From: Thermoleophilia bacterium
GTDB lineage: Bacteria > Actinomycetota > Thermoleophilia > Gaiellales > Gaiellaceae
Direction of reading: 5' to 3'
Length of the DNA stretch: 38,133 nt
Assembly (NCBI GenBank): GCA_025929425.1
Contig: JAICME010000009.1
Coordinates: forward strand, 1 to 38,133
A program made the translations under genes and the position numbers. This document shows, piece by piece, positions 1,389 to 3,106 of this stretch. Numbering within the stretch: position 1 is the stretch's first letter; every line of letters begins with the position of its first letter. The notes beneath the pieces were generated by a model, which was not told the DNA's origin, did not search any database, and saw only the letters and a program-made list of their open reading frames with translations.

Positions 1389-1461
1389 AGGGGCGTAGCT
1401 CAGTTGGTAGAGCGGCGGTCTCCAAAACCGTAGGTCGGGGGTTCGAGTCCCTCCGCCCCTG
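1389..1461 (+). tRNA. tRNA-Trp (anticodon CCA)
   Basis: The 73-nt sequence folds as a complete cloverleaf. The acceptor stem AGGGGCG pairs with CGCCCCT and is followed by discriminator G. The D arm is GCTC/GAGC around AGTTGGTA, the anticodon loop is CTCCAAA (anticodon CCA), and the T arm carries GGTTCGAGTCC. The 3' CCA is not encoded. The gene diverges from the small acidic ORF and the sigma-factor group. Its 3' 28 bases plus two downstream bases are repeated exactly at 3077-3106, which marks it as the likely integration target of the adjacent island. Confidence 0.95.
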
Positions 1462-1463
1462 CT
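1434..1463 (+). repeat. attL-like direct repeat (tRNA-Trp 3' end)
   Basis: First copy of the 30-bp perfect repeat. It covers the T arm, the acceptor 3' strand and two bases beyond the tRNA. The flanking bases differ from those of the other copy (G1433 against T3076; G1464 against T3107), so the identity stops exactly at these limits. Confidence 0.8.
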
Positions 1464-1517
1464 GGCTTCCCTGGCCGGATCCCGTTCCTTTGCAGAGGAT
1501 TCCCGGCTAGAGCAGAT

Positions 1518-1552
1518 CCGCTCAAGTCCGCTGGAAACCGCTGGACGCCGCT
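1518..1552 (+). repeat. four CCGCT motifs at exact 10-bp spacing
   Basis: CCGCT occurs at 1518, 1528, 1538 and 1548, that is, one DNA helical turn apart, with partial similarity in the spacer (CTGGA twice). With the 11-bp repeats that follow, this looks like an array of protein-binding sites close to the attL end. Integrase or excisionase arm sites would be the natural reading; this is inference. Confidence 0.45.
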
Positions 1553-1556
1553 ACCG

Positions 1557-1589
1557 ACTGACACGCAACTGACGCGCAACTAATGCGCA
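1557..1589 (+). repeat. three tandem 11-bp repeats near the attL end
   Basis: ACTGACACGCA, ACTGACGCGCA and ACTAATGCGCA follow each other without a gap. They differ at one to three positions. The set lies about 95 bp inside the left end of the island, in a stretch with no gene, and resembles arm-type integrase sites. Confidence 0.5.
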
Positions 1590-1732
1590 GGCGGACCGGC
1601 TAGCGCCATGCGCGGAAGAGCCTGATCTGCTCTACGGAATCCCCGAGAAGAGCCGAACGCGACGGCCCACGCTCTAGACGGACAGCTGCGCGAGCGGCCT
1701 GGGCCGCGTTACGCGGCTCCGGGATAGTCTGC

Positions 1733-2914
1733 TTACCTCAGCATCGCGCGGAGCTTGGCCGTTGGGACAAAGACGAGCTTCCCGGGACCGCCTCCCACTT
1801 TGTAGGGGTTGCCCGCATAGACGAGGCCGCGTGACCCGATCGTCGCGGGACTGCTCGCTTCACTGGCGGCGATCGTGACTGCCTTGCCCGTTGTCAGGTC
1901 TAGCAGGCGCAGCCTGAATGAGTCGCCTGAGAGGACGGCGACTCGTCCGTAGACCACAAGGCGGTCTGCCCCAGGCGATCCATGACCGAGCGCCAGTGGC
2001 CAGACGTGTACCAGTGCACCCGTCCTCCAGTCATAGACCTCCACCCTGCTGGTCAGGGATCCGGCTTGGGGAATGTCCAGCCTCAGCACGACCAGCTGAT
2101 TGCCGCTGAGGGCGATCCTGATCATGCTGATGGGGTAGCCGCAGGGATTCGGGAGCGGCACGTTGAGCGCGATCTCGCCGAGCAGCGTGCCATCCGTGGA
2201 GTAGACACCCACCATCGGCGTGCCTTGCTTGGCTGGGCCTTGGTAGGCGGGCCACGCATCTGTTGAACGGAGGACGGCGATATGGCCGCCATTTGCCGCC
2301 TGCGACACGACTGCGCCTGGGCCGCTGACCATCGTCCGTAGCCCGGTGGACGTGACGTAGCGGAGGCGCTCGCCAGTGGTGGCAGCGCTGTCCGATTCCC
2401 AGCTGCTTACGGCCAGGATCTTGCCCGAGCCGACCAGGCCGCCGATCCAGTTGCCGAAGGAGTACCCACTGCCCGGCACGTCGCAGGCTCCCACATCGCT
2501 GCTGGAATGGTTGGTCAGCTTCCCGATCTGGCGCGCCGATCCGCCCATCGACGCGGTATATAGGCGCTCCTGCGTCTGCATCGTGTTGCCCGTGACAAAG
2601 CGCGTGATCAGGGCGATTCGCGTGCCCGCGATCGCGACCTCACCGCTTCCGTAGCCGAACTTGCTGCCACTGCTCGGATAGGTGCCTTCGATGGTCGAGG
2701 TCGCGCCCGTGACCACGTTCCAGACGCCGACCCTGCGGTCGCTCCTCATATAAGCGACGCGAGGCCCATCCATCGCAAGCGTCCGGACCGGCTTGGCCGT
2801 CTGCTTCACCTTGTTCGGCTCGGGCTTTGGCGCCCCAGCCTGTGCCGCGAGAACCAGCAGCAGTGCGAGGGACAGCAGCGCGAGAAACAGCCCCACAACA
2901 CGGAGCCTTCTCAT
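1733..2914 (-). CDS. secreted beta-propeller-like protein of unknown function
   Basis: The product (393 aa) starts MRRLRVVGLFLALLSLALLL, a clear signal peptide with a probable cleavage near AAQAGA. The mature part carries repeated blocks such as 'RVAYMRSDRRVGVWNVVTGA', 'RLVVYGRVAVLSGD' and 'SRGLVYAGNP'. These are spaced as in WD40/TolB-like beta-propellers in which each blade alternates a value with a 'variable name' strand. I chose the ATG at 2914 because GGAGG lies 8 nt before it; an in-frame GTG at 2929 would add five residues and overlap the ribosome site. It is the only gene between the two tRNA-derived repeats and is read toward tRNA-Trp. A cell-surface or periplasmic binding role is possible, with no catalytic motif seen. 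Its codon use is less GC-extreme than neighbouring genes, consistent with transfer. Confidence 0.75.
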   Translation of the reverse strand: MRRLRVVGLFLALLSLALLLVLAAQAGAPKPEPNKVKQTAKPVRTLAMDGPRVAYMRSDRRVGVWNVVTGATSTIEGTYPSSGSKFGYGSGEVAIAGTRIALITRFVTGNTMQTQERLYTASMGGSARQIGKLTNHSSSDVGACDVPGSGYSFGNWIGGLVGSGKILAVSSWESDSAATTGERLRYVTSTGLRTMVSGPGAVVSQAANGGHIAVLRSTDAWPAYQGPAKQGTPMVGVYSTDGTLLGEIALNVPLPNPCGYPISMIRIALSGNQLVVLRLDIPQAGSLTSRVEVYDWRTGALVHVWPLALGHGSPGADRLVVYGRVAVLSGDSFRLRLLDLTTGKAVTIAASEASSPATIGSRGLVYAGNPYKVGGGPGKLVFVPTAKLRAMLR

Positions 2915-3076
2915 ACTCCTCACCTCCACCTACATTCTCGTAGCAGCGGAGAGCCGCGCCATCGGGGTTCGCCCCGCCCGAATTGCTCGAATCTACGAGT
3001 GCCCAGAAGAACGTAGCCCTGGCCTAGCGCCTCCGCCATATCAGGCCACCATGCCCGCGGCAACACTCCCCAGTGT

Positions 3077-3106
3077 GTCGGGGGTTCGAGTCCCTCCGCC
3101 CCTGCT
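3077..3106 (+). repeat. attR-like direct repeat (tRNA-Trp 3' end copy)
   Basis: Second copy of the 30-bp repeat. No D arm or anticodon arm precedes it, so it is not a tRNA gene. It lies about 135 bp before the cold-shock gene; the stretch 2915-3242 otherwise holds only upstream sequence of the two flanking divergent genes. Confidence 0.8.

Follow-up and report, generated by a model that had tools for sequence, protein, structure and literature searches.

The 1.6-kb segment behind tRNA-Trp in this Thermoleophilia genome is probably a decayed, CIME-like remnant of an island that targeted the anticodon loop, left by a deletion that would have run into attR. The window, meaning the whole stretch of 38,133 nucleotides that was analyzed (contig C86), comes from a draft genome of 2.7 Mb and 86% completeness. 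A 30-bp exact repeat of the tRNA-Trp 3' end had been reported to bracket the segment by an earlier first-pass annotation, and the two copies (1434-1463 versus 3077-3106) indeed match at 30 of 30 positions. An intact tRNA-Trp thus stands at one end and a displaced 3' fragment at the other, in direct orientation, as is characteristic of tRNA islands. The enclosed segment has a GC content of 65% versus 70% for the window. A third copy of the tRNA fragment unrelated to any insertion, which would have argued against this picture, did not turn up: none with up to 8 mismatches lies on either strand of the 38-kb window, and a search of the whole genome revealed no further near-exact match to the tRNA-Trp fragment. 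The features of the locus are as follows.

128-913, minus strand: sigma-70 family factor (Pfam Sigma70 r2/r3/r4), left neighbor of tRNA-Trp; this left flank is kept in genus mates
1389-1462, plus strand: tRNA-Trp(CCA), the target gene (ARAGORN)
1416-1426, plus strand: anticodon loop region, the predicted crossover core, present on the left side only and placed from the repeat starts of 10 other array islands (tRNA positions 26-33)
1434-1463, plus strand: left copy of the exact 30-bp direct repeat (attL side)
1517-1556, plus strand: four 10-bp repeats (TCCGCTCAAG, TCCGCTGGAA, ACCGCTGGAC and GCCGCTACCG) with CCGCT, aligned in related islands
1557-1589, plus strand: three 11-bp repeats (ACTGACACGCA, ACTGACGCGCA and ACTAATGCGCA), putative P'-arm integrase sites (leave-one-out nhmmer; pair score)
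1733-2929, minus strand: cargo gene with a GTG start for a predicted secreted, beta-propeller-like protein of 398 aa; the sole convincing gene of the segment
3077-3106, plus strand: right copy of the 30-bp repeat, interpreted as an attR cut down to its T-stem and acceptor part; the 200 bp on its left contain no P-arm pair
3148-3989, plus strand: cold-shock gene and small ORFs, outside the island proper and at other loci in relatives
4051-5106, minus strand: dinB-type polymerase (Pfam IMS; synteny), the right neighbor of tRNA-Trp kept in the genus

Genomes of the genus share the gene order sigma factor, tRNA-Trp, dinB, and the distance from tRNA-Trp to dinB ranges from about 12 bp (G001) through 0.7 kb (G004 and G011) and 1.3-3.1 kb (G005, G007, G015, G013, G006 and G014) to 8.6 kb (G012). 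Apart from short matches to a repeat array and to one small repeat, the window segment was not found in other genomes of the family; it is polymorphic, being absent from genus mates, with tRNA-Trp of G001 sitting beside dinB. The finding that would have told against insertion, namely that all relatives carry the segment, was therefore not made. Comparison of the locus among relatives, as the first-pass annotation had proposed, yielded both a near-empty site in G001 and a longer island in G010. The latter spans 9.6 kb (C68:7755-17389) in the same tRNA-Trp, is bounded at its far end by a 50-bp repeat of the tRNA 3' half, and carries an integrase directly behind the tRNA. The right flank of the window insert has been rearranged as well, since the cold-shock segment between the right repeat and dinB resides elsewhere in five relatives. 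As about 0.95 kb to the right of the insert has also moved, the G001 locus does not correspond exactly to the window without 1464-3106, and the history of the right junction may be more complex. This rearranged flank would suit an origin of the repeat by chance or by segmental duplication, with no integration at all. That origin is nonetheless highly improbable: all exactly repeated plus-strand 20-mers of the window fall in the 30-bp repeat, making it the only exact repeat of at least 20 bp on that strand, and it coincides with the exact tRNA 3' end in direct orientation, with putative integrase arm repeats behind the tRNA.

Those repeats, absent from the earlier reading, form an array at 1517-1589 just 3' of tRNA-Trp, composed of the four 10-bp units followed by the three 11-bp units, the latter centering on ACTGACGCGCA. 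An array model built without the window recovered the window array at an E value of 9e-11 (leave-one-out nhmmer, whole-genome-sized search), and the left 11-bp pair of the window scored 24.8, where the 95th percentile of the background was 4.3. The same arrangement occurs behind tRNA-Trp of G018, tRNA-Arg of G069 and tRNA-SeC of G068, and it lies between tRNA and integrase both at tRNA-Trp of G010 and at tRNA-Cys of the window's own genome. Of 103 family genomes, 25 matched in a pattern search, with 29 hits in total (8 in the reversed control); 21 of the 29 are 56-77 bp 3' of a complete tRNA (Ser, Arg, Trp, SeC or Gly), a placement with a chance probability of about 0.0003 per hit. Among all GTDB species, the exact form of the pattern was found on 18 contigs, mostly from actinobacterial soil metagenome bins and with Gaiellaceae and Miltoncostaeaceae among the named taxa; it is rarer in the wider class than in the family. 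No exact match was present in viral contigs (IMG/VR), and a literature search for these elements in Gaiellales or Thermoleophilia found nothing relevant. The array is not a general tRNA flank, being absent from most tRNAs and from most genomes of the class. A supposed decayed second array to the right of the repeat (3170-3195) was also dismissed, since relatives conserve the same letters as the leader of their cold-shock gene.

Several array sites depart from the common arrangement. On a Gemmatimonadaceae bin contig (L188) the array lies 69 bp behind tRNA-Gly, reflecting either cross-phylum transfer or misbinning. At L171 (G051:C49), L153 (G024:C199) and L169 (G047:C186) it adjoins a tRNA-Gly or tRNA-Phe fragment from the other side, which would fit insertion in the reverse direction. 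On the integrase-free contig of L185 (G115:C44), about 4.2 kb separates two tandem tRNA-Ser copies, and an array follows each of them.

Integrases were gathered by protein search with the G010 enzyme, blind to the array. Array model matches lie near six such integrases outside the training set of the model: two in the window's own genome (C196, with the array behind tRNA-Ser, and C148, with the array behind tRNA-Cys), one each in G083 and G060, and two loci in G085. The C196 and C148 enzymes are 56% and 48% identical, respectively, to the G010 tRNA-Trp integrase. At most of the remaining array sites, no integrase lies within 1.5 kb. Because the array recurs behind many tRNAs and beside independently found tyrosine integrases, we read it as a set of integrase arm sites. 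By position and covariation, the 11-bp repeats are predicted to bind integrase as putative P' and P arm sites; the 10-bp repeats may be sites for an accessory protein or second arm sites. Integrase-mediated insertion at the window tRNA-Trp, whose geometry the first-pass annotation had recognized, is well supported at the level of sequence by locus polymorphism, the G010 integrase island in the same tRNA and the arm-type repeats behind the tRNA.

The two ends of the insert differ in completeness. Islands having both ends on one contig were scanned with a weight matrix for the 11-bp unit. In five of five complete integrase-bearing islands (G010 Trp, C148 Cys of the window's genome, G083 SeC, G060 Arg and G005 Gly), a second 11-bp pair lies 61-83 bp inside the right repeat, and left and right pairs are alike within an element. 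The window has the P'-type array of 10-bp and 11-bp units behind its tRNA. It lacks the P-type 11-bp pair that marks the family at 60-95 bp inward from the right repeat: the best score in the last 200 bp is -3.3 (background median -2.7, 95th percentile 4.3). The islands of G002, G056, G115 and G047 also have one arm only or score weakly. The repeat itself is also short. Direct repeats start at tRNA positions 26-33, in the anticodon stem-loop, in 10 of 10 aligned other islands; that of the window starts not at the anticodon loop but at position 46, in the T-stem, 13-20 positions later than in relatives. The right copy consequently lacks the anticodon-loop part with which related repeats begin, a feature the earlier reading did not contain. 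A late repeat start together with a missing P-arm pair fits a deletion with its right end inside attR and, if that holds, the 30-bp repeat would be what is left of a longer one.

A short repeat could instead be the complete core of a T-stem-type integrase that made the insert and was lost afterwards. T-stem crossovers are common among other integrases, T-stem and acceptor crossovers accounting for nearly half of catalogued tRNA islands (PMC4383910), and the window repeat is exact and spans the T-arm and acceptor stem. We nevertheless consider this origin rather unlikely, as the family to which the left array belongs starts its repeats at the anticodon loop in every aligned case, the G010 Trp island included.

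The first-pass annotation had left the choice between a decayed island and a satellite mobilized in trans. The incomplete right end, lacking the P-arm pair and the anticodon-loop core kept by related islands, favors the former, and the latter finds no support for the window copy. A complete non-autonomous satellite, mobilized by a resident integrase, would account for the intact attL and arm array and for the 30/30 repeat. The search for an integrase in the same genome, also proposed earlier, did locate two of the matching family, each with an array, and integrase-less islands with both arm pairs exist in G116 and G068. Such a satellite would, however, have to work with neither a P-arm pair nor the anticodon-loop core at its right end. 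The resident C148 and C196 integrases moreover differ from the window in their arm letters and sit at tRNA-Cys and tRNA-Ser, neither at tRNA-Trp, although a Trp-specific helper could be missing from an assembly that is 86% complete. We therefore regard a complete satellite as improbable, and trans-mobilization of the window copy as unlikely.

A helper with the arm letters of the window was also sought through loose 11-bp pairs in its genome. Four such pairs were found, three of them with other letters and beside complete or partial tRNA-Ser, and the candidate was rejected. C27 and C28 carry tRNA-Ser 3' halves that start from the anticodon loop, each with an 11-bp pair before it, and C148 holds a truncated one (G000:C27:5159-5181, G000:C28:7229-7251 and G000:C148:13747-13769; L235, L234 and L237). 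These ends point to past activity of this element family at tRNA-Ser in the window's genome, next to the C196 integrase. No comparable partner end for tRNA-Trp was found in the assembled part of the genome.

Our favored account of the window, a decayed island, would run in three steps. An element of the tRNA-targeting tyrosine-integrase family would have entered tRNA-Trp at the anticodon loop and rebuilt the 3' half of the tRNA. Later, a deletion would have taken the integrase along with the P-arm sites and would have cut into the attR core from the left, although no remnants of a lost integrase and P-arm were seen. Such a deletion would leave attL and the P'-arm array at one end, a shortened attR at the other and a single cargo gene between them, a remnant that most likely now stays put. 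Where the crossover took place, that a deletion occurred and that mobility was lost are all inferred from sequence.

The absence of an integrase claimed in the first-pass annotation was upheld, a search of 1400-4060 detecting no integrase remnant (best E 0.15) and contig C86 containing no PF00589 match. The segment carries a single gene, with no integrase and no other Pfam match, and so resembles CIMEs in having lost integration and transfer genes. That this gene encodes a secreted, beta-propeller-like protein, as described before, is supported by prediction. The N-terminus resembles a signal peptide, and an in-frame ATG at 2914 is a likelier start than the GTG. The protein has no Pfam match, but an AlphaFold model from a nine-sequence alignment (mean pLDDT 78) has an all-beta topology, and Foldseek matched it in the PDB to beta-propellers and WD-repeat proteins (E about 1e-8, TM about 0.4-0.5); a profile search likewise matched WD-repeat chains. 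Homologues with 56-57% identity are encoded at unrelated loci in G014 and G004. Joint capture of the cargo with the att site was rejected, these loci aligning with the window in the coding region only and having no array.

Elements of this kind are already known as CIMEs (cis-mobilizable elements; PMC5704250) and integrase-less ssrA islands (PMC3146451). Like the window insert, CIMEs are integrated at a tRNA between att-derived repeats and have lost integration and transfer genes; they keep attL and attR, whereas attR of the window appears truncated and without arm sites. The ssrA islands of Dehalococcoides are likewise small, lack an integration module, are bounded by repeats of an RNA-gene 3' end and are related to full islands at the same site, but their recombination system is a serine recombinase at tmRNA, not a family of tyrosine integrases found at many tRNAs. 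Islander-type tRNA islands (PMC4383910) share the tDNA regenerated at one end and the displaced 3' fragment at the other, and include an anticodon-loop crossover class; their definition requires an integrase gene inside, which the window segment does not have. Among the closest counterparts, the G010 island has in common with the window the tRNA, the type of array behind it and the T-arm/acceptor repeat, and differs in its integrase, its P-arm pair and a 50-bp repeat that begins in the anticodon stem.

As a single locus the window holds an ordinary decayed tRNA island, whose worth is as an entry point. The parts deserving attention are the clade-wide array and the intact integrase-less islands. 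In soil Thermoleophilia, a family of elements that target tRNAs can be searched for by this array, which also reveals integrase-less islands with complete ends, namely G116:C36 (tRNA-Ser, about 0.9 kb) and G068:C147 (tRNA-SeC, about 2.4 kb), both with two 11-bp pairs. These are better candidates for trans-mobilization than the window copy, and the clade makes it testable whether tyrosine integrases move tiny non-autonomous cargo elements in trans. More tentatively, islands such as G116:C36 and G068:C147 might represent a whole class of mini-elements in the clade, about 0.9-2.4 kb long and with one or a few genes, that have no integrase but keep complete att sites with both arms. A common integrase family would move them in trans at many different tRNAs, and the window insert would be a worn-out member of the class instead of the stump of an autonomous island; we think this possible but doubtful.

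The gene content of other islands was also noted. At L186 (G116:C36, minus strand, about 7935-8830), the opposite strand seems to encode a short DTGS aspartyl-protease-like gene. L088 (G068:C147, 7254-9850) carries a hydrolase/cyclase fusion and is followed by another SeC copy, which has a partial array of its own. The integrase-bearing tRNA-Cys island of the window's genome (L091, G000:C148, 4655-12637) includes an open reading frame of 2660 aa, and the 10.4-kb tRNA-SeC island L162 (G083:C1, 4556-15018) combines an integrase with an Eco29kI-type restriction enzyme and a methylase. L152 (G002:C18, 1773-9236), a 7.4-kb tRNA-Arg island without an integrase, carries PRTase-CE/HD and HNH proteins resembling defense effectors.
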